Assembly (NCBI GenBank): GCA_947504035.1
Contig: CANNGA010000001.1
Location: 310,001-374,000, forward strand
Reading direction: 5' to 3'
DNA from: an uncultured Flavobacteriaceae bacterium
Lineage (GTDB): Bacteria; Bacteroidota; Bacteroidia; Flavobacteriales; Flavobacteriaceae
Length of the DNA: 64,000 nucleotides
Numbering within the stretch: position 1 is the stretch's first letter; every line of letters starts with the position of its first letter. Positions 6,069 to 43,430 of this stretch are shown one piece after another. Under the pieces are notes generated by a model. That model was not told where the DNA came from. It made no database searches and saw nothing but the letters and a program-made list of their open reading frames with translations. Made by a program: the position numbers and the translations under genes.

Positions 6069-8357
6069 CTATGTGTCACTTTCTTCTATACCTGTAATTT
6101 TAGCAGGTTGTACAGAAGCATCATGTGCATTGTAATATTCTTCTAAAAGGCTCATTGTAGCGTTTAGTAAGTCTTTTGTTTCTAGAAGCAAACTAAAGTA
6201 CAATGTTGTGTTTTTAGGGCTGGATTCTTCAGCTCTAGTGCGTTCTACTTGAATTTGTATTTTTTCGCTAACAAGATTAAAATATTTACTTTTCTTGTCT
6301 AGAACAGCTCCAATTTGTTCAAAAGAACCCGATTCAAAAGCATTTTTAGTGTCATTAAATAACAGCTCTAAATGCGCATCAATATCTTTAAGTTCTTTGA
6401 TTTGACTAAACTTAAGTTTTTTATGGTTGTTATTTACATGTTTAAAGCTAGCCTTAGAGATGTAAGTTAATGACTGCGCCATATCTTGCAAGTAACTTAG
6501 AATGCTAATGTAGAAGTTACTGGCGTTTACGCTAGGATCTTCTAAATTTTTGATGAAGTAATAGATGTTGTCTCTTAGGTCTTCTATTTCATCAGAGAGT
6601 TTTTCTATTTGTGTTTTGTTTTTCTTAAGCAGTTTTAAGTTGTGCGTGGCTAAACCATTTACAGCACTGGTGTATATTCTATTCCCTCTTTGGATAACAT
6701 TGGCAATGTTACTGGCACTTTCTACGATAACCCCTTGTGTAGAACTGCTTTCTGCTTTTTGAAGGGTATCTTCTACTTTTTGCTCTATAGATTTTTTACG
6801 GTGCGTTAAATAGTTTTTAGTAAGCAGTACGATGGCAAGAATAAGTAAAGCTGTTAAGGCGTAGGCGCCACCATAAAACAAAATAACAGCCATAACAGCG
6901 GCAGCAGCAAAGGCGCTTAATGCTGTGAAAAACCAACCTCCAATCACGTTAAGTACACCAGCAACTCTATAGACAGCGCTCTCACTGCCCCAAGCGCGAT
7001 CAGCTAACGATGTTCCCATGGCGACCATAAAGGTAACATAGGTTGTTGATAATGGTAATTTCATAGATGTGGCCAATGAGATAAGAACACTGGCAACCAT
7101 TAAATTAACAGAGGCACGTACCAAATCGAAGGCAGGCATATCCTTTGTTTTTACAGAGGCAGGAATTCTAGTATGTTCGAATTGACGGTTAATATAGGTT
7201 CTAGCAGCCTCTGGCAATAGGTTGCTAAAGCTGTCGGATAGCGCTATACTTGAACGTACAATGTATCGCGATAAGAAATTAGGCTCAAAACGTTCGTTAA
7301 CATCGTCTTGTCTTGATAAATCTACTGAAGTTTTAACAACAGCTTTGGCTTTACTAGAAAACCATAAGGTTAATACCATAATAAGCCCTGCTATTAAAAG
7401 TAATACAGGTTGCGTAGGAATGGCTTCGGATAAGCTGGTCATTCTTAAAACATCAGGAGCAGTGCCACTTTTCATCCAAACGCCAAAAGAATCGAATGCA
7501 GCAATAGGTACACCAATAAAATTCACCAAATCATTACCTGCAAAAGCTACAGCCAGTGCAAAAGTACCGACTACAATTATAATTTTATAAATATTAACTT
7601 TAAGAAGTGCGATCAATGCTAATGAGATTAAGCTAAATAAGATAAAGCTTATAGCCAATAGTGCAATATTATTGTTGTGGATTAAAGCCTTTAGTTCTCC
7701 ACTCATAAATGATGCATTTTTAATCCCTTTAATTAAGATGAAATAAAGAATAGAGGTGATTGCAAAACCGCTAAAGATAGCGCCATAAAACTTAGGCTTA
7801 GTATTAAAATTGAAAGACAGTAATAAACGCGATATAAATTGAATGATAGCACCAACAGAAAAGGCAACCACTACAGAAAGCAATATCCCTAATATAATTT
7901 CTATAGCTTTACCATTGTTAATATAATTGCCTATATCTAATAAGGTTTGTCCACTATCTGGGGCCATTATCTTTAAGATGGCTACGGCAACAGAAGCGCC
8001 AAGCAATTCAAATACGATAGAAACAGTGGTCGATGTGGGCAGGCCTAAGGTGTTAAAAAAATCTAATAAAAGGATATCGGTAATCATAACCGCCATGAAT
8101 ATAATCATGATTTCATCAAACATAAATTCACTAGGATTGAAAATGCCTTTTCGGGCCACCTCCATCATGCCGCTAGAACTTAAGGCGCCCATGGCAACAC
8201 CTAAACTGGCTACAATCATTATGGTTTTAAAGGATACAGCTTTAGAACCAATTGCTGAATTTAAAAAGTTTACAGCATCGTTGCTAACACCAACAATTAA
8301 ATCTGCTATGGCTAAAAATCCCAAAGCAATAAGCATATAGATGTAAATGTGTTCCAT
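6069..8357 (-). CDS. PiT/PHO4-family inorganic phosphate transporter with C-terminal PhoU-like region
   Basis: About 762 residues. The N-terminal half is a phosphate permease with the duplicated PiT signature: VGVSNDAVNFLNSAIGSKA near residue 20-40 and VAFAGNDLVNFIGVPIAA in the second repeat, each within a many-helix membrane domain (about 1-520). The soluble C-terminal 230 residues are helical and PhoU/DUF47-like, as in the long Bacteroidota version of the family. It imports phosphate with a cation. I prefer the ATG at 8357 (MEHIYIYML) over 8369 because the family usually begins there. The promoter has a -7 GACATTTG at 8383-8390 and Pho-box-like repeats at 8409-8427, so induction by phosphate limitation is likely. 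Confidence 0.9.
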   Translation of the reverse strand: MEHIYIYMLIALGFLAIADLIVGVSNDAVNFLNSAIGSKAVSFKTIMIVASLGVAMGALSSSGMMEVARKGIFNPSEFMFDEIMIIFMAVMITDILLLDFFNTLGLPTSTTVSIVFELLGASVAVAILKIMAPDSGQTLLDIGNYINNGKAIEIILGILLSVVVAFSVGAIIQFISRLLLSFNFNTKPKFYGAIFSGFAITSILYFILIKGIKNASFMSGELKALIHNNNIALLAISFILFSLISLALIALLKVNIYKIIIVVGTFALAVAFAGNDLVNFIGVPIAAFDSFGVWMKSGTAPDVLRMTSLSEAIPTQPVLLLIAGLIMVLTLWFSSKAKAVVKTSVDLSRQDDVNERFEPNFLSRYIVRSSIALSDSFSNLLPEAARTYINRQFEHTRIPASVKTKDMPAFDLVRASVNLMVASVLISLATSMKLPLSTTYVTFMVAMGTSLADRAWGSESAVYRVAGVLNVIGGWFFTALSAFAAAAVMAVILFYGGAYALTALLILAIVLLTKNYLTHRKKSIEQKVEDTLQKAESSSTQGVIVESASNIANVIQRGNRIYTSAVNGLATHNLKLLKKNKTQIEKLSDEIEDLRDNIYYFIKNLEDPSVNASNFYISILSYLQDMAQSLTYISKASFKHVNNNHKKLKFSQIKELKDIDAHLELLFNDTKNAFESGSFEQIGAVLDKKSKYFNLVSEKIQIQVERTRAEESSPKNTTLYFSLLLETKDLLNATMSLLEEYYNAHDASVQPAKITGIEESDT

Positions 8358-8382: not shown

Positions 8383-8427
8383 CAAATGTCTTATTTTAAA
8401 ACGAACTCAATGTTATCCCAATGTTAT
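8383..8427 (-). promoter_or_regulatory. Pho-box-like promoter of the phosphate transporter gene
   Basis: AATGTTAT occurs at 8409-8416 and again at 8420-8427, exactly 11 bp apart. A -7-like GACATTTG (minus strand, one base off the TANNTTTG consensus) lies at 8383-8390, leaving an 18-nt spacer. Direct repeats of 7-8 bp with 11-bp phasing just upstream of a promoter lacking a -33 box are typical of PhoB/PhoP sites. Confidence 0.6.
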
Positions 8428-8555
8428 GTTCTATGTATAAGAGTTTTTATATAATAAGGCGCATAGCATTAGTAGTAGCTTATGTTAGTGAATTTAGAGT
8501 GGTTTTAATTTTTTTTACACACTTAAATAGTTGCTTATGAGTTAATTATGAGTCT

Positions 8556-8612
8556 TATGTTAATTTAATGTTATCTAAATGTTGTTTAAAAGTAAAATAA
8601 AATATATATTTG
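8556..8612 (+). promoter_or_regulatory. Pho-box-like promoter of the small MORN/YwqK-like gene
   Basis: Three direct repeats at 11-bp phasing: TATGTTAA (8556-8563), AATGTTAT (8567-8574) and AATGTTGT (8578-8585). A perfect -7 element TATATTTG follows at 8605-8612 after 19 nt. A TTG at 8582-8584 also fits a -33 box, so repeat and promoter overlap. The repeats run in the opposite orientation relative to the gene compared with the other three sites in this block. Confidence 0.6.
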
Positions 8613-8643
8613 TAAAGTAATTATTAATTAAACCCAAATAGCA

Positions 8644-8961
8644 ATGAAAACATATATATCAATTTTAGCGGCACTATTTATTAGTGTATCCGTTTTTGCA
8701 CAAAAAGAAAGAACATTAACGCTTAATAAAGAGACAAATTTAATAGATGTTACATATTACCATGAGAATGGTAAAGTGAGTCAAACAGGATCTTATACTG
8801 CCGACGGTAAATTAGAAGGACAGTGGTTAAGTTTTAATGAAGCAGGAGAAAAGACAGTGACTGCATATTATAAAGAAGGAAAGAAAACTGGAGAATGGAT
8901 TTATGTCATAGAAGGGAAAACTAAGAAAGTAGATTACTCCAAAAATATTGCATCACTTTAG
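8644..8961 (+). CDS. Small secreted MORN/YwqK-like repeat protein
   Basis: 105 residues with a signal peptide ending VSVFAQ. The rest holds two to three short beta-hairpin repeats of the type YHENGKVSQTGSY..GKLEGQW and YYKEGKKTGEWIY, as in MORN-like / YwqK-family proteins. No catalytic residues are evident. It is divergent from the phosphate transporter and shares the 11-bp-phased repeats in its promoter, so it probably belongs to the same regulon. A role in the periplasm or on the surface under phosphate limitation is inferred only. Calling it an antitoxin, as databases often do for this repeat, would be misleading: there is no toxin partner here. Confidence 0.7.
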   Translation: MKTYISILAALFISVSVFAQKERTLTLNKETNLIDVTYYHENGKVSQTGSYTADGKLEGQWLSFNEAGEKTVTAYYKEGKKTGEWIYVIEGKTKKVDYSKNIASL

Positions 8962-8987
8962 CCAATTATACCAACTACAACTATAAC

Positions 8988-9020
8988 TAAAAAAGCATCC
9001 TGTAATAGGATGCTTTTTTT
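8988..9020. terminator. Bidirectional terminator between convergent genes
   Basis: Hairpin AAAAAGCATCCT, loop GTAAT, AGGATGCTTTTTTT. It lies between the rightward gene ending at 8961 and the leftward gene ending at 9039 and has A/T runs on both sides. Confidence 0.85.
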
Positions 9021-9038
9021 ATGTAATTTTAAAAGAAA

Positions 9039-10232
9039 TTAGTTACCCACGGTCCATCCTGCACCCCAAGTAGAAAACGCAGTACCTGTACCAGCACCAA
9101 TACCTGTTAAGAAATCTTCAACAGCAAAAGTATCTCCAGTATCGTTTTTAAATTGCTCTGTAACATCGTTAAATGTAACGTCAGTCGCACTTAAAACACC
9201 GTTTATTACTCCAGTTCCAGTTGGGTTTGCACTATCACCAGCATCACCATCTAAATCGAAACCTTCTGTGAAACCTTCAAGTAAAACATTGTTTAAGAAT
9301 CCTTGTGTACCTGCTCTTAAGCGAATAGCTTCGTTATTAGTATCAGAACCTAAACCTTTTATCGTTAAATTTGTAATAGTAGGTCTAGACCAGAAAATAG
9401 GGTCAGATAAATTACCTATATCCGTATTATAACCATCTCCCTCGATACCCTTATCGTGAGATTCGCCATGAGATACATAAGCATCTGTGATGTTTCCTAT
9501 ATAACCTTCTGTCCAGTCTATAGAATCATCTTGACAGTTTGTAATTACCAAGTGATCTACATTTACAGTACCACCAAAGAACTCGATACCATCATCAGCA
9601 CCTTCAAATGCTTGAATAAAATCTACTGTAGTTCCAGAACCTACACCGTAGAAAGAGAATCCATTGTTTTCAGAAGAACCATCGGCAGCACCTCCAGAGT
9701 ATTCTACACGTACATAACGTATAATACCAGAATTGTCGGCAGCGTCTGAACCACCATAAGCTAAACTTCCAATTTCAGAGGTTGCTGTAGCGTTACCAGT
9801 TACAGAGTTTAAAGGTGCGCGCCCTAAGATAATTAAACCTCCCCACTGTCCTGCGGCAGGCGTTGAAGATCCAGAAGTAAATACAATTGGATTTGCAGCG
9901 GTTCCGTTAGCGATAATTTGCGCGCCTTGAGAAATAGCTACATATACATTTGCACCGTTAGCTGCAGATCGAATTATAGCGCCTTCTCCAATTCTAAGTG
10001 TAGCACCTTCAGCTATAATTACAGGACCGTTTATAGTGTAAGCCGTATTGGCATCTAATACTAGGTCGGATGTATACGTTGCCGCAGGAACAGGAATTCC
10101 TTCTACAACGTTAGCATCATTATTGCCCTCAATGATTGTAATATCAGCGGTGTCATCTGATGCACAAGAGTTAAAAGTTAGTGCTAATAAAGCAGCGCTA
10201 AATGTTAAGAATAAATTGCGTGTGGTTTTCAT
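9039..10232 (-). CDS. Beta-helix-like surface lipoprotein paired with a TonB receptor
   Basis: 397 residues. Lipobox FNSC is followed by ASDDTAD, acidic residues like the lipoprotein surface-export signal of Flavobacteriia. The body is Gly/Asn/Thr-rich and repetitive (AYTINGPVIIAEGATLRIG, GGLIILGRAPLNS, VRVEYSGGAADG, FEGADDGIEFFGG, NCQDDSIDWTEGYIGN), which suggests a right-handed parallel beta-helix. The DDGIEFF and DDSIDW turns could bind metal or anions. It starts 28 nt downstream of the TonB receptor gene and is surely cotranscribed with it, so it may be the surface-exposed capture partner of that receptor, as SusD is for SusC. No enzyme activity is evident. Confidence 0.7.
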   Translation of the reverse strand: MKTTRNLFLTFSAALLALTFNSCASDDTADITIIEGNNDANVVEGIPVPAATYTSDLVLDANTAYTINGPVIIAEGATLRIGEGAIIRSAANGANVYVAISQGAQIIANGTAANPIVFTSGSSTPAAGQWGGLIILGRAPLNSVTGNATATSEIGSLAYGGSDAADNSGIIRYVRVEYSGGAADGSSENNGFSFYGVGSGTTVDFIQAFEGADDGIEFFGGTVNVDHLVITNCQDDSIDWTEGYIGNITDAYVSHGESHDKGIEGDGYNTDIGNLSDPIFWSRPTITNLTIKGLGSDTNNEAIRLRAGTQGFLNNVLLEGFTEGFDLDGDAGDSANPTGTGVINGVLSATDVTFNDVTEQFKNDTGDTFAVEDFLTGIGAGTGTAFSTWGAGWTVGN

Positions 10233-10260
10233 TTTCTTAAAATTAAAGTGTTGTTTTTGT

Positions 10261-13101
10261 TTAAAATTTGTATTTTAATTGTAATCCTATGTTCAATCCT
10301 TTTCTGTAGTTCGTAACATCTTTACCATTGGCAGAGGTTACTAATATGTCTCCGTCTGCACTCTCTCTAATGTAACGTACACGAGGATTTAAAATATTTT
10401 TCACGGCAAAGTTGGCTTGAAATTTTTCACCAATTTTGTTTCTTAAAATAAAGTCTAAAGAAGGAATTCCTTTTTCAATAACATTACCTAAAGCACCAGA
10501 ACCTAAAGCATCTATTCTATCTGAGAAATAAGATGTTGATAAGGTCGCAGAGGGTTTGAAATTGTCATTTAAAGTTGGAGCATAGGTAATATCGGCGTTA
10601 CCTACAAAAGGAGAGGCGCCTTGTAATTGTTCTTTGTCTTCAGAAAAGCTTACGCTAAAAGTACCGACAATATTATCGTATAAATCTTGTTCTGTATGCA
10701 TAATTGTAGCATTGACACCGAAGGAAAGTTCTGCTTCGTCGTCTTCGTTTAGAATTAGATTTTTTCTAAAATCAATTTCAGCTCCAAATACTTGCGCCTT
10801 TTCACCTGTTCTAAAGAAGCGTTGTGTTCCTGTCGCATCGAAAGCTACAACTAAGTTTACAGGATCATCAATTCGCTTGTAGAAAGTACTAACAGCGAAT
10901 AATTCTAAAGGGCTTAAAAACCATTCGTATTTTAAATCTATATTAATCACATTAGAGAAAGAGACATCTGGAACATTAACAAAACCTGTATTGTCACCTC
11001 TTCCAAATAAATCGGGGTTACCACCAATACGTTGTGATACACTTTCGTATACAAAAGGAGCTACTTCTTTAAATTCTGGAAGTGAAATAGTTCTACTTGC
11101 CGAGAAACGTAAATTTTGATCTTCTTGTAACGCATATTTCACACTTAAACTTGGTAGGAATAAATCATCGGAATCAGAAACAGAACCTACGCCGTTATTA
11201 CCGAGGTTAATCACGTCATAAGACACGGTTTGGTCAAAAGATTCTACACGAAGACCTGGTACAATTAACCATTTATCGTCAAGGTTAATTTGCGCATTAA
11301 CATATCCTGCATGAATGTCCAGTTTACCATCGTAAGTGTTCTCGTCTAAGCCAGGACGGTTCACATTGCTCTGCCCAGGGATTGGGTTAATAATGTTAAC
11401 GGTAAAACCTCCAGGAGAAACACTAGTATTTAGGTTGCTGAAAGAGAAGAAGTTATTTAAGCTATTAACATTTGGTACGGTAGGGTCTCCAATAATGTCC
11501 AATCCAAATCTAGTATTGTCGAAATTACGTTCTTTAGACCTTCCGTTATAGCCAATGTTTAACTTTGTGTTTTCAATAGTTTTAACAGTAAGATTTAAAC
11601 GGCCGTTAAATTCTTCATCTTGTATGTTTTGAAAATAACGTTGGTTATCGAAATCCACATTGCTAAAGAATTCTGGATTTGTATTAGGATCATTGTCTAA
11701 GGCAAATTGAAAGTTTTCAAAGCTAAAACGCTTTCTGTCTGGCTCGTTAGCATTAACAAAGTTATGACCAAAACCCCAATCTAGATCTAAAGGCTCAAAT
11801 TTATGTTTACCCGTTAATTGGTTTACGTAAATCAAGTTTTCATTAAACTGTATGTTTTTTTGAAAGAAACCTTGATCTGTATCTTCTATGGCATCCCTAT
11901 TTCTACCCGTACCATCTATACCAAAGAAACCTACTTTGTCTGATGAACTGTTTATAAATAATGAATTGGCTTTGATGGAGTTATTACCATCTATTTTATA
12001 GATAATAGAAGCCATAGCTGTTGTTGTTGTGCCATACTCAAACTCTTCGGCAGCATCAAATGCTTTATTTTCTACGTTTGTAAAATCTACAGAAACACCT
12101 CTTCGGTATTCAAAGTTGTTCTCGAAAGATCCTGTTCCGTAAAAACTAAGTTTAGAACCATCTTTAAAAGAGAATGACTTCCCAAAAGACCCTCCAAAAC
12201 TAACGTTTATAGGTGCTCCTGCGTCTACAGGGTCTACACCGTGATTAAGGATTACAGCGAAAGGCTCTTGCGAAAACCTGTTGTAAAACCCAAAGTAACC
12301 AGTACCTTCACTTCTAATAAAATTTTTATCTACGGCATTGGTGTTTATACCAGAACCAACACTAAATTCAAAAAAGCCGTCTCCTGTATAATCTTTAGAG
12401 GTAATATCTACGTTACCAGCAGCAAAATCAGCATAAAACTTAGAAGAGTACGCTTTACTAATAGACACATTTTCTATAATATCAGATGAAAATAAGTTTA
12501 AATCAATATTCTTCTTACTCACATCATTAGAAGGTAGAGATAAACCGTTAAGTGTGGTGTTTAAATATCTATCGCTTAAACCGCGAACGTATACATTACT
12601 AGAGCCTTCTTGTTTAGAAACTCCAGATATTTTTGATACAGCACCCGCTGCATCGCTAACACCTTTTTTTGCAAGCTCAACAGTTCCAATAGTTTGCTTG
12701 ATCTCTACAGCTTTTTTCTGGTCTAAAAGTGTAGCTGCTTCAGTTTCTTTTTTTCGACTTACACTAATAACAACCTCGTCTAAAGAGGCAGCACTTGCAG
12801 ACATAACTAGATCTAACTTGGTTGTGTTTCCTGCTGTAATCGTAATTGTTTTTTCTTGCGTCTCGTAACCTACAAAACTAACTTGTAAAGTATACGATCC
12901 AGCTTCTAAACCTTTAATTTCGTAAAGCCCATCAAAATCAGACGTTGTTCCTTTTGTGGTGCCTTTAATCAATACATTAGCAAACGCTAATGGTTCATTA
13001 TTATAGTCTTTGTCAGTAAGTTTTCCAGATACTGACCCTGTGTCTTGAGCCTGAGCTAACACACTGGTAAAGAGAAGTAATAATAGTAAAAAATGTCTCA
13101 T
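10261..13101 (-). CDS. TonB-dependent receptor (carboxypeptidase-like domain, plug, barrel), probable phosphate-limitation gene
   Basis: 946 residues. A signal peptide ending LAQAQD is followed by a CarboxypepD_reg-like domain (about 22-110, with AGSYTLQVSFVGYETQEKTI), a plug (KKGVSDAAGAVSKISGVSKQ, VYVRGLSDRYLNTTLNGLSL, NVDITSKDY) and a large barrel ending in aromatic LNIGLQLKYKF. It probably forms an operon with the downstream beta-helix lipoprotein. The promoter carries five 11-bp-phased Pho-box-like repeats, and the phosphate transporter lies close by. Uptake of a phosphorus compound is therefore the most likely job. This is inference: no binding residues can be assigned. Confidence 0.82.
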   Translation of the reverse strand: MRHFLLLLLLFTSVLAQAQDTGSVSGKLTDKDYNNEPLAFANVLIKGTTKGTTSDFDGLYEIKGLEAGSYTLQVSFVGYETQEKTITITAGNTTKLDLVMSASAASLDEVVISVSRKKETEAATLLDQKKAVEIKQTIGTVELAKKGVSDAAGAVSKISGVSKQEGSSNVYVRGLSDRYLNTTLNGLSLPSNDVSKKNIDLNLFSSDIIENVSISKAYSSKFYADFAAGNVDITSKDYTGDGFFEFSVGSGINTNAVDKNFIRSEGTGYFGFYNRFSQEPFAVILNHGVDPVDAGAPINVSFGGSFGKSFSFKDGSKLSFYGTGSFENNFEYRRGVSVDFTNVENKAFDAAEEFEYGTTTTAMASIIYKIDGNNSIKANSLFINSSSDKVGFFGIDGTGRNRDAIEDTDQGFFQKNIQFNENLIYVNQLTGKHKFEPLDLDWGFGHNFVNANEPDRKRFSFENFQFALDNDPNTNPEFFSNVDFDNQRYFQNIQDEEFNGRLNLTVKTIENTKLNIGYNGRSKERNFDNTRFGLDIIGDPTVPNVNSLNNFFSFSNLNTSVSPGGFTVNIINPIPGQSNVNRPGLDENTYDGKLDIHAGYVNAQINLDDKWLIVPGLRVESFDQTVSYDVINLGNNGVGSVSDSDDLFLPSLSVKYALQEDQNLRFSASRTISLPEFKEVAPFVYESVSQRIGGNPDLFGRGDNTGFVNVPDVSFSNVINIDLKYEWFLSPLELFAVSTFYKRIDDPVNLVVAFDATGTQRFFRTGEKAQVFGAEIDFRKNLILNEDDEAELSFGVNATIMHTEQDLYDNIVGTFSVSFSEDKEQLQGASPFVGNADITYAPTLNDNFKPSATLSTSYFSDRIDALGSGALGNVIEKGIPSLDFILRNKIGEKFQANFAVKNILNPRVRYIRESADGDILVTSANGKDVTNYRKGLNIGLQLKYKF

Positions 13102-13124
13102 TATTTCGTTTTAATTTGTTGCCG

Positions 13125-13202
13125 CAAAGAAACCACCTCTTTGTGACTATTGTGTTATTACACAATTAAAGAACTGTAATAAAAGCGTTAGTTTAACGTT
13201 AT
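13125..13202 (-). promoter_or_regulatory. Pho-box-like promoter of the TonB receptor/beta-helix operon
   Basis: Five octamers in exact 11-bp register: TGTGTTAT (13151), ACAATTAA (13162), ACTGTAAT (13173), AGCGTTAG (13184) and AACGTTAT (13195). They match AATGTTAT at 6, 4, 6, 5 and 7 of 8 positions. A -7-like TTTCTTTG (minus strand) lies at 13125-13132, 18 nt from the nearest repeat and 23 nt from the start codon. Confidence 0.55.
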
Positions 13203-13301
13203 CAAAGGCGCTGTTTTTTTAAGGATTGTTTACAATAAATTAACATTTGATTAAGAAAGTGCTATTTGTAGAAAAGCCCTTTCAGGTACTGGACTAGGCC
13301 T

Positions 13302-13343
13302 AAAAAAAAGCACTTTTTACAATTGTAAAAAGTGCTTTTTTTT
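13302..13343 (-). terminator. Terminator of the small carboxypeptidase-regulatory-like gene
   Basis: Perfect long palindrome: AAAAAAAAGCACTTTTTAC facing GTAAAAAGTGCTTTTTTTT around AATT. It is 30 nt past the stop of the leftward gene at 13373 and separates it from the TonB receptor promoter. Confidence 0.85.
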
Positions 13344-13372
13344 AAATAGGTATGTTAAATTAATGTATACGT

Positions 13373-13750
13373 TTAATTATGTTTTATAGCATCATCTTGT
13401 GTTTTAGATGCAGAGGCTGCGAACGCTAAAGTAAGGTCATCTAAAGATAAAGAAGAAGCGTGAAGCACAACATCGGTAGGCGCATTTAAAGTGGCAACGA
13501 TTTCTTTGGTTTCATATCCCGTAAAACTACATACTAAGGTATAAGTACCTTGTGCTAGGTTGTCAAAACTAAAAGTGCCTGTTTCATTTGTTAACGCCTT
13601 TTGTCCTGTTTCTTTTAAAGTTACTTTAGCTAATAATAGCGGAGCGCTATCACTTTCTGCATCGGTAATAATACCACTAATTGTGTTTGTGTTTTGAGCA
13701 AAACTAAAAGTGCTTAGCGTTAGTAATAGTACTGAGAGTAATACTTTCAT
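13373..13750 (-). CDS. Orphan carboxypeptidase-regulatory-like (CRD) secreted domain
   Basis: 125 residues from the ATG at 13750 (an in-frame ATG at 13765 lies further up but would precede the signal peptide). A signal peptide ending FSFAQ is followed by one beta-sandwich: SGIITDAESDSAPLLLAKV, NETGTFSFDNLAQGTYTLV, FTGYETKEIV. This closely resembles the N-terminal domain of the TonB receptor next door (SGKLTDKD..EPLAFANV, GSYTLQVSFVGYETQE), but no plug or barrel follows. It could be a stand-alone CRD module or a domain split from a receptor. It has its own promoter with Pho-box-like repeats and its own terminator, which argues against a decaying fragment. Confidence 0.7.
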   Translation of the reverse strand: MKVLLSVLLLTLSTFSFAQNTNTISGIITDAESDSAPLLLAKVTLKETGQKALTNETGTFSFDNLAQGTYTLVCSFTGYETKEIVATLNAPTDVVLHASSLSLDDLTLAFAASASKTQDDAIKHN

Positions 13751-13773
13751 GAAATTGAAAATCATTTTTTTTG

Positions 13774-13851
13774 CAAAGAAACTGGTTTAATGCGATTTAA
13801 GTGTTACCGAATCATTAAACCTAAATAACTAAAATGTTATCTTAATGTTAA
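13774..13851 (-). promoter_or_regulatory. Pho-box-like promoter of the orphan CRD gene
   Basis: Five octamers in exact 11-bp register: AGTGTTAC (13800), ATCATTAA (13811), TAAATAAC (13822), AATGTTAT (13833) and AATGTTAA (13844). The -7-like TTTCTTTG (minus strand) at 13774-13781 is 18 nt from the first repeat and 23 nt from the start codon, the same geometry as at the TonB receptor promoter. The second and third octamers are weak. Confidence 0.55.
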
Positions 13852-41693: not shown

Positions 41694-43430
41694 TTAATCA
41701 AATCTAGTAGTGCTAAGTGTGTTGCTTGGAATTAGCTCGATAAGTTTTACACTATGAGGTGCTAAATCTACTTCTAATTCCAATTTACCATTAGTTCTTT
41801 CTATAATTTCATCAGAAATGGTCTGTGGCAACTCCGCTAAGGTTTCATACTTGGATCTATTAGCAGTAAATACATCTTCCCAAGCGGCATCGAAACGATC
41901 TGACGTTCTGTTTCCATAAATTCTACCGTTAGTATTTTCGGTAACACCAGCAGCTCTAAGATCATCATATAATTCATGTAGAAATATACCATTGTTGGCG
42001 TCTATAGTCCATTCGTTCATAGTCCAAGTTCTAAAATTAGCAACATCACCACCTTCTATTTGAGGATATAATGTTCTGCTGCCAGTACTTGTTCTACTTG
42101 CATTATGGTTGTATATCAAGATGTATAGTTTGCCGTCTTTACTTACAGGAATGGCGCCAGCAAAACTAGATATGTTATCGACAGATTGTGGATCTGTAGC
42201 TTGTAATCTAGTACCATCTTCTAATTTTAAAAACATTTCGGTAACATTTCGTCTTCCTGCAGGTAAATTGCCCGTAGATTCGATTTCTTGTCCCCAGTCA
42301 TAAATTTCAGAAATTCTATTATCAAACGCCATGTCTACTATTGCAGCATACCAACTTGCACCTAGTTCGGTACCATCGTTTAAACTTTGACCTACAGTTC
42401 CATTTTCATCAGCTACAATACCAAATTCTTGAATGTCGAAAGGGATATTAGCAAACTGTGGATAGCTGTTTAAGCTATTTCTATAGGGAGCGACAATACT
42501 TGCAAATTTTATATTATTGTTTCTAATACGCTCGTAGTACGATAAAGAGAAAAAGTCCATTTGCGTTCCTGTTCCTCCTGTCGCAAAGTTAGTTCCTGTA
42601 GCACAATGATCAATCAGTTCTGTTGTAAACGCGGCAGCATTACCTTCAGTTAATAAGTTGCCAGGGCCTACGATAGCATTAGGGATGACCTTTAATACTT
42701 CATCTACTGTAATATCGTAGTGCATAAAGAATTGTTCTGGAGTACCTCTCCAATGCCCAGGATTAAAATTGGGTTCTGTAGTAATTCTAAAACGCCAAGT
42801 TTCGACTTCACTTAAACCATAATTATCTACAAGTGTTTGTAAAAACGCATTAATGTATTGGCGCCATAAATTATAATCCTCTGGAGGACGAGAATTACCA
42901 AATCGGTCTACTATTAGGGGTTGAGCACTTAAATCCCAAGGTACGTTGTCTAAAACAATTCTTGGTTTAAAACCTGTAAGCATAAAATTGTCTAAACTAC
43001 GTGTCAATTGTGTAAAGTCAGTAATGATATTTCCTTCATTATCGACACCCTTATAGAAGTTATTCGTTACAAAATCTGCTTCACCTCTAAGCTGTCTACC
43101 ACCTAACAATCTAACGATATTGTAGCTTTTAACGTAAGAGTCTAAGCTGGCGATATTGTTTCTAAAGTTAACACTGTTAAATCGTGTTTGGTTAATCATT
43201 GGTCGCGTAGACCAAAAGTTGTAAAATGATCCTACAGTAACACCTGCGTTTATAGATATCGTATTTTCTGGTGTCGCAATGGCTGTTTCAGAAATCAGGT
43301 CGTTCGAGTTCGTTTGTTCGCTTTCTAAATCTTGTAAGACTTCTTCCTCTATTCGGTCGTTTTCACTACAGGAATATAAACCTAAGGACAGCGCTACTGC
43401 TAAAAATAAATGTGTTGTGAATTTCTTCAT
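41694..43430 (-). CDS. GH39-like glycoside hydrolase, surface lipoprotein
   Basis: 578 residues. Lipobox LYSC is followed by SENDRIEEE, acidic residues like the surface-export signal. The catalytic domain (about 60-560) shares ordered segments with the gene at 1-748: VRLLGGRQLRG, IVLDNVPWDLS, RITTEPNFNPGHWRGTPEQF (acid/base Glu in TEPN, like NEP of GH39) and LKVIPNAIVGPGN. The nucleophile candidate is the Glu of DIQEFGIVADE. A C-terminal beta domain follows (NRTSDRFDAAW, LAPHSVKLIEL). It probably acts on a marine polysaccharide or its oligomers at the cell surface. It is a single-gene unit with a structured leader. Confidence 0.75.
   Translation of the reverse strand: MKKFTTHLFLAVALSLGLYSCSENDRIEEEVLQDLESEQTNSNDLISETAIATPENTISINAGVTVGSFYNFWSTRPMINQTRFNSVNFRNNIASLDSYVKSYNIVRLLGGRQLRGEADFVTNNFYKGVDNEGNIITDFTQLTRSLDNFMLTGFKPRIVLDNVPWDLSAQPLIVDRFGNSRPPEDYNLWRQYINAFLQTLVDNYGLSEVETWRFRITTEPNFNPGHWRGTPEQFFMHYDITVDEVLKVIPNAIVGPGNLLTEGNAAAFTTELIDHCATGTNFATGGTGTQMDFFSLSYYERIRNNNIKFASIVAPYRNSLNSYPQFANIPFDIQEFGIVADENGTVGQSLNDGTELGASWYAAIVDMAFDNRISEIYDWGQEIESTGNLPAGRRNVTEMFLKLEDGTRLQATDPQSVDNISSFAGAIPVSKDGKLYILIYNHNASRTSTGSRTLYPQIEGGDVANFRTWTMNEWTIDANNGIFLHELYDDLRAAGVTENTNGRIYGNRTSDRFDAAWEDVFTANRSKYETLAELPQTISDEIIERTNGKLELEVDLAPHSVKLIELIPSNTLSTTRFD

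Follow-up and report, generated by a model that had tools for sequence, protein, structure and literature searches.

Phased TAACATT arrays upstream of flavobacterial phosphate genes as putative Pho boxes

The Pho boxes bound by PhoB in Escherichia coli and by PhoP in Bacillus are direct repeats in an 11-bp register, sometimes several in tandem, which replace the -35 element of the promoter; their letters are CTGTCAT in E. coli and TTAACA in Bacillus, which has letters of its own. The promoters of Bacteroidetes are of the -7/-33 type, and TAnnTTTG is a box used in Flavobacterium papers. Here we consider a window of 64,000 nucleotides (meaning the whole stretch analysed, G000:C1:310001-374000 in our labelling) within the 4.23-Mb genome of an uncultured Flavobacteriaceae bacterium, in which arrays of TAACATT-like units precede four genes, those for a Pit phosphate transporter, a small MORN-like protein, a TonB-dependent receptor and a short protein with a single CarboxypepD_reg-like domain (CRD). 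A preliminary description read these arrays as Pho boxes, and we think that it was very probably right: matches to a model of the arrays at phoB, plcP, pstS and pstC and the gene order of Flavobacterium johnsoniae all support a flavobacterial Pho box, with the arrays as putative PhoB sites and a lineage-specific form of a known phosphate switch. Like the E. coli and Bacillus boxes, these are 11-bp direct repeats at the -35 position, in tandem and upstream of phosphate genes, and the TAACAT unit has T..CAT in common with CTGTCAT and is similar to TTAACA. Unlike them, they have a TAACATT core rather than TGTCA, run to as many as six units, are coupled with a TAnnTTTG-type -7 box and, at MORN and phoB, include arrays whose reversal is conserved. 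The consensus of the relatives' sites, ATAACATTAAnnTAACATTnnA, is not made of TGTCA repeats, and this mismatch with the E. coli letters bears on the variant, not on the kind of site.

The published systems are cited here from excerpts. In F. johnsoniae the genes for PhoB (Fjoh_0544), a receptor (Fjoh_0545) and a lipoprotein (Fjoh_0546) stand in a row in the PhoBR cluster, and the log2 responses to phosphate depletion are 8.0 for the receptor, 9.9 for the lipoprotein, 8.6 for PlcP and 3.1 for PhoB (PMC8115612). This low-phosphate regulon, with its receptor and lipoprotein beside PhoBR and with PlcP and PhoB, resembles what we describe here; unlike the present analysis, the excerpted study does not use the word promoter in its main text and gives no DNA site (PMC8115612). 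The lipoproteins called FI-FIII show 31-36% identity with a Caulobacter low-phosphate lipoprotein (PMC8115612), which is ElpS and co-occurs with a TonB receptor (PMC2996285); judged solely by its position, the lipoprotein in our window may be FII/ElpS-like. It has also been reported that plcP is induced by phosphorus starvation in strains including a Dokdonia, and putative Pho boxes, with no consensus in the excerpt, are marked near marine-bacterial plcP genes (PMC4796936). In Riemerella anatipestifer, TTTAACA represents the most conserved letters of the PhoP motif, and PhoP binds upstream of phoPR (PMC9603813). Here too is a Flavobacteriales regulator named for phosphate, with TTTAACA letters and a site upstream of its own operon; unlike for our arrays, the excerpt describes no repeat spacing or Pho box, and the targets are tied to redox and virulence (PMC9603813). 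A literature search aimed at an 11-bp Pho box for Bacteroidetes showed none among the papers listed.

On direct checking of positions, all 15 octamers of the preliminary description lie where it had put them and keep the 11-bp register. Counted over the 8 positions of AATGTTAT, the Pit octamers match at 8 and 8, those of MORN at 6, 8 and 7, those of the receptor (13151 to 13195) at 6, 4, 6, 5 and 7, and those of CRD (13800 to 13844) at 6, 4, 3, 8 and 7, in line with the 3-4 matches already pointed out for some middle units. The 18-19 nt claimed between the nearest octamer and a -7 box hold for all four promoters (table), as does the statement that three of the four boxes sit 23-25 nt from the start codon: 25 for Pit, 23 for the receptor and 23 for CRD, with MORN at 31, the Pit and CRD distances being counted from the second in-frame ATGs at 8357 and 13750. 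These are the likely starts because the relatives align from there, the Pit alignments beginning at query residue 5 in most related loci and those of CRD at residue 6 in four.

How rare is such a pattern? The pair ATAACATTN3ATAACATT, at no more than one mismatch, occurs at three places in the window against 0.02 expected, none of 100 shuffles reaches three, and these same places are its only matches in the whole genome. At up to three mismatches there is no genome-wide excess (138+145, or 283, versus 169+175, or 344, in a reversed control), and therefore only the strong form of the pair is special; the case rests on strong pairs and their conservation, not on abundance. The 30 best places of this genome-wide search were annotated, and the one outside the window that was taken further is that at phoB. 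The weak receptor array is backed by homology, since a 58-bp five-unit matrix built from 55 relatives' receptor promoters scores 39.8 at CRD and 36.6 at the receptor, with the next place in the window at 7.6. Likewise, the five highest scores that a 22-bp matrix from 159 relatives' sites gives in the window all fall at the four promoters (25.8, 21.5, 21.3, 20.9 and 17.6). Close behind, at 17.0, comes an isolated pair inside an open reading frame (42230-42251), which is probably a chance match.

The conservation of the arrays was followed in 65 related loci (870,565 bases), found by scanning named genomes with the TonB receptor, in many of which the lipoprotein, MORN and Pit genes adjoin the receptor. 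A strict pair was defined as two TAACATT heptamers, each with at most one mismatch and 11 bp apart, between -300 and +45 of the gene start. By this rule, forward pairs precede the receptor in 35/59, CRD in 11/11 and Pit in 31/37 cases but MORN in 0/41 and the lipoprotein in 2/63, whereas reversed pairs precede MORN in 39/41, the receptor in 11/59 and phoB in 3/4, with none at CRD (0/11), Pit (0/37) or the lipoprotein (0/63). The reversed orientation of the MORN array, which the preliminary description had left unexplained, is thus a conserved and rigidly placed feature. When unit pairs were counted over the whole loci by spacing, from 7 to 60, there were 233 at 11, 98 at 33 and 77 at 22, against 9 to 62 at the others; the reversed-sequence control gave 32 at spacing 11, and just 9 of the 233 lie inside open reading frames. 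We regard the rarity of other spacings in the same DNA as a stronger argument than the locus counts.

The pairs also keep to particular genes. A spacing-11 pair is found in 114/140 promoter regions of the target genes and in 12/271 other intergenic regions of the same loci, and the motif is therefore uncommon at unrelated genes, where the preliminary description had said that a common occurrence would refute it. Among these 12, six regions (in five loci) border a porin gene, with Porin_O_P (PF07396) detected in 6/6 such porins tested, and one borders the start of a cut-off receptor. This count of intergenic regions replaces a gene-based control (228 genes, 35 and 40 with a pair) that was contaminated by neighbours. 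That the repeats are simply a phased A+T-rich bend or a promoter-strength signal is scarcely credible. The A+T-richness of the units and their phasing of about one helical turn would suit it, but arrays are missing from most of the other intergenic regions in these loci, and at least 90% of 138 sites retain the C in TAAC of the second unit (the first unit's AAC, partly required in choosing sites, was left out of that count).

Promoter geometry was read from 159 sites collected with a looser rule, 55 of them at the receptor, 33 at Pit, 39 at MORN, 11 at CRD and 21 at phoB. Offsets are counted from where the 22-bp pair ends, and a -7-like box is any match to at least 5/6 of TAnnTTTG. Such a box stands at offset 15 in 31/33 Pit promoters, at offset 48 (15 + 33, three units farther) in 41/55 receptor promoters and at offset 30 in 30/39 MORN promoters, where the exact TAnnTTTG lies at 30, 19 or 8 in 33/39. 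The receptor consensus, nTAACATTtAg nTAACnTTtTt ATnAcnnatnt TTAATcTnnAn tTAACatnnac TTTACAntntnnnaGTTTCTTTGCa, comprises six units, the third weak, and the sixth is weak in the studied genome's copy. Relative to these predicted -7 boxes, the arrays keep a fixed distance and take the place of the -35/-33 element, as a Pho box does.

Arrays are also found beyond the window, at genes of the phosphate regulon. The regulator most like PhoB in this genome, of the OmpR family, is encoded on the contig of the window, some 131 kb ahead of it (G000:C1:178011-178661), next to a kinase gene. A pair with two mismatches lies 75-94 bp upstream of it, and in 30 loci (the studied genome and 29 relatives) a strict reversed pair precedes phoB in 10 and a forward pair in none; other reversed spacings from 8 to 24 give at most 4, except 22 with 11, and the looser rule, applied to the reversed strand only, finds a site in 21/29 relatives. 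In four loci (Kordia, Pareuzebyella, Flavobacterium and Elizabethkingia) phoB is the receptor's divergent neighbour, a synteny that supports this regulator as the cognate PhoB.

Scans of other genes used a sequence-only model made from 138 of the 159 sites (20 receptor sites and one Pit site omitted), all from relatives and none from the studied genome, although the rule by which they had been picked favours the motif. In the studied genome the model has 22 matches at E<=10, the best seven being CRD (18.9 bits), phoB (16.7), a site in coding sequence (15.6), C2:127490 (14.6), C2:160835 (14.6), C9:33790 (14.3) and Pit (14.2). The gene downstream of C2:127490 encodes a calcineurin-type phosphoesterase (PF12850), presumably PlcP by the family given for the induced Fjoh_4577, so that CRD, phoB, plcP and Pit rank 1st, 2nd, 4th and 7th of 22. 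The plcP promoter repeats the layout, with two strong units, one weak, two more and then 19 nt to TTATTTG; among 30 plcP homologues, 10 have a spacing-11 pair (seven from the same genus), and other forward spacings of 8-24 reach at most one. The match at C4:1829 was rejected as chance in coding sequence.

The model has 13 matches in Flavobacterium sp. ALD4, from which no training site was taken. The first is pstS (18.9 bits, forward, 46 bp upstream of the longest reading frame; TIGR02136 over its cut-off) and the second pstC (17.0 bits, forward, 9 bp upstream of the longest reading frame; TIGR02138 over its cut-off), while the sixth is MORN, reversed, and the thirteenth a porin that has 36.5% identity with a related OprP but no Pfam or NCBIfam match. 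Three further genomes gave 12 matches at E<=0.5, of which 6 adjoin porin, Pit, MORN or receptor genes, one of these inside the longest reading of MORN; these genomes had contributed other training sites, so that the 6/12 count only partly, and the Leeuwenhoekiella MORN-Pit site lies beyond its trained locus. The support that the preliminary description had looked for, upstream of phoB, pst and phosphatase genes, was thus largely obtained, at phoB, plcP, pstS, pstC and OprP-type porins, and it was missing at most PhoX-type genes (a pair in 2/30) and at half of the clear pstS genes (3/6).

Table 1. Features around the four arrays (window coordinates)
Feature	Position	Strand	Remarks
Pit, PHO4-family phosphate transporter	6069..8357	-	PF01384, 94.5 bits; start probably 8357, not 8369
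Pit -7-like element GACATTTG	8383..8390	-	imperfect match; 18 nt from last octamer
Two-unit Pit array, ATAACATTGGG ATAACATTGAG	8406..8427	-	reads toward the Pit gene; forward pair in 31/37 relatives' Pit genes
Three-unit MORN array	8556..8585	+	unit WTAACATT on the - strand, reversed relative to MORN transcription
MORN -7 element TATATTTG	8605..8612	+	19 nt from last octamer
MORN-like small protein, 105 aa	8644..8961	+	start resembles a signal peptide; no Pfam match
Lipoprotein, 397 aa	9039..10232	-	3' of the receptor, as in related loci; no Pfam match
TonB-dependent receptor, 946 aa	10261..13101	-	PF13715, PF00593, PF07715
Receptor -7 element TTTCTTTG	13125..13132	-	18 nt from last octamer
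Five-unit receptor array	13151..13202	-	reads toward the gene; 36.6 bits with relatives' five-unit matrix
CRD protein (CarboxypepD_reg-like, single domain)	13373..13750	-	PF13715, 60.9 bits; start probably 13750
CRD -7 element TTTCTTTG	13774..13781	-	18 nt from last octamer
Five-unit CRD array	13800..13851	-	reads toward the gene; whole-genome top match of relatives-only model

A number of observations weigh against a phosphate regulon under PhoB, and we set them out together. The best family match of the regulator is PhoB, yet its scores stay under the curated cut-offs (223 versus 296.2 for PhoB; 216.2 versus 270 for Bacteroides PhoB). The strict criterion finds phoB sites in only 10/30 loci, 20/30 plcP homologues have no strict pair and the studied genome's own plcP pair fails it. 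Three of the model's best seven matches (the coding site, C2:160835 and C9:33790) have no evident phosphate link, nor do the other 9/13 in ALD4, and the local scoring of the studied genome misses the MORN and receptor arrays, MORN reaching 4.9 bits. Related loci share ancestry, so that their counts are not independent events. Among PhoX-type genes, 28/30 have no pair with two mismatches or fewer in all, a weak negative given many partial matches, uncertain starts and three frames that ran to the end of the stretch; no match to PhoX was found in the studied genome itself, and the one to PBP is weak. Of 30 PF12849 loci, six have E below 1e-30; three of these carry a forward pair, leaving three clear pstS genes with no strict pair, and none of the other 24 does. 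Three paralogues of the lipoprotein in the studied genome (34-35% identity) have no upstream pair, and there is none in the 39 kb around them. From the published side, F. johnsoniae shows no induction of OprP (Fjoh_0542), and Fjoh_0545 is listed with pf14905 (PMC8115612), for which neither the window receptor nor the ALD4 receptor has a match, so that the correspondence of receptor and lipoprotein to Fjoh_0545/0546 is one of gene order only. Finally, Riemerella PhoP has been read as ArcA-like, with targets that are not mainly phosphate genes (PMC9603813). The negative results for PhoX, pstS and the paralogues bear on the reach of the regulon, and they leave our high confidence in Pho boxes where it was.

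The reversed arrays raise the question of what they act on. The MORN array reads forward for the divergent porin/Pit side, and it could be a distant part of that control region with no action on MORN itself. We consider this unlikely, given that a second array is present at Pit or at the porin itself and that the MORN array holds its fixed distance to the -7 box, a rigidity which suggests that it acts directly on MORN. The reversed array at phoB may be a relic of a region shared with a once-divergent receptor. An asymmetric activator bound backwards over a promoter might block polymerase rather than recruit it, and it is tempting to propose that orientation sets the outcome, forward arrays activating the scavenging genes and reversed ones, at MORN and phoB, repressing or damping. 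This is speculative and a shade less likely still, and phoB, reversed here, is induced in F. johnsoniae, so that reversed arrays could have either sign; if true, the proposal would mean one regulator with two signs from one type of site in flavobacteria.

A different regulator is also conceivable, namely another member of the OmpR family that reads TGTTA/TAACA repeats at 11 bp, either ArcA-like or the second such protein of this genome. ArcA boxes in E. coli are direct repeats at 11 bp too, many with three to five units (PMC3798270), the excerpt on Riemerella PhoP calls its motif ArcA-like (PMC9603813), and a second full-length OmpR-type regulator, RprY-like, is encoded here (G000:C4:174642; L051:3631-4335), with 142.1 bits to PhoB and a best match to RprY of 279.4 bits, under the cut-off of 370. 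That protein follows a kinase gene of its own, and the array-bearing genes include phosphate genes and phoB. The likeness to ArcA boxes lies in direct repeats at 11 bp and two to five units; unlike in the excerpted description of those, the distance to the -7 box is fixed here and several genes are phosphate-linked (PMC3798270). ArcA boxes are typified by variable position and orientation relative to the promoter and by redox genes, and the best model matches here include phosphate genes; we judge such a regulator to be improbable.

Some further observations concern the genes themselves. A MORN-like protein of a relative (L294) matches MORN_2 (PF07661, 29.8 bits), the window receptor scores 150.6 bits with TIGR01782, under the cut-off of 310, and a short CRD gene lies immediately 5' of the receptor in 11 related loci. 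Between CRD and the receptor promoter in the window, an inverted repeat flanked by runs of A and T (13302-13343) resembles a two-way terminator, so that the two are probably separate transcription units; a similar hairpin (8989-9020) separates the convergent MORN and lipoprotein genes. In L104 (1-951, window 12454-13406) the promoter and receptor start are 82% identical in DNA and the first 50 receptor residues 100% identical to those of the window, with only 20-42% identity past about residue 200; its lipoprotein is 37% identical, and identity is back at 92% for 236 bp across the end of MORN. The L070 receptor is the opposite, with 70-84% over the first 150 residues and 80-100% afterwards. 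Both look like mosaic genes in which the surface part has been swapped beneath a retained promoter. Elsewhere, a TTAACATT pair lies 155 bp (studied genome, L241, G000:C2:160835) and 153 bp (Bizionia, L308) upstream of a membrane protein of the same kind, a possible further member of the regulon. Reversed pairs also precede the genes of two similar proteins in two other genomes, one of 90 aa (L302, 19.7 bits) and one of 93 aa (L311, 15.1 bits); the former has no Pfam family, and relatives of the latter were not found in 60 genomes searched, which shows little.

If the arrays are indeed Pho boxes, the flavobacterial PhoB would bind them with one monomer per 11-bp unit (WTAACATTNNN), all on one face of the helix and each pair as a dimer, on promoters that hold from two units (Pit) up to five or six (receptor, CRD and plcP). 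The nearest unit, 18-19 nt from the -7 box, sits where a -33 element would be expected; PhoB bound there could take over from that element and, under low phosphate, bring in RNA polymerase. The predicted targets are the surface receptor and its lipoprotein, the CRD protein, Pit, PlcP for lipid remodelling and phoB itself, with OprP-type porins, PstS and PstC as likely additions in relatives. Bacteroidetes are important phosphorus recyclers, and a usable consensus would allow the phosphate regulon to be predicted across the Flavobacteriaceae, genes of unknown function included, and would show how an activator of the PhoB type operates on this phylum's unusual -7/-33 promoter.

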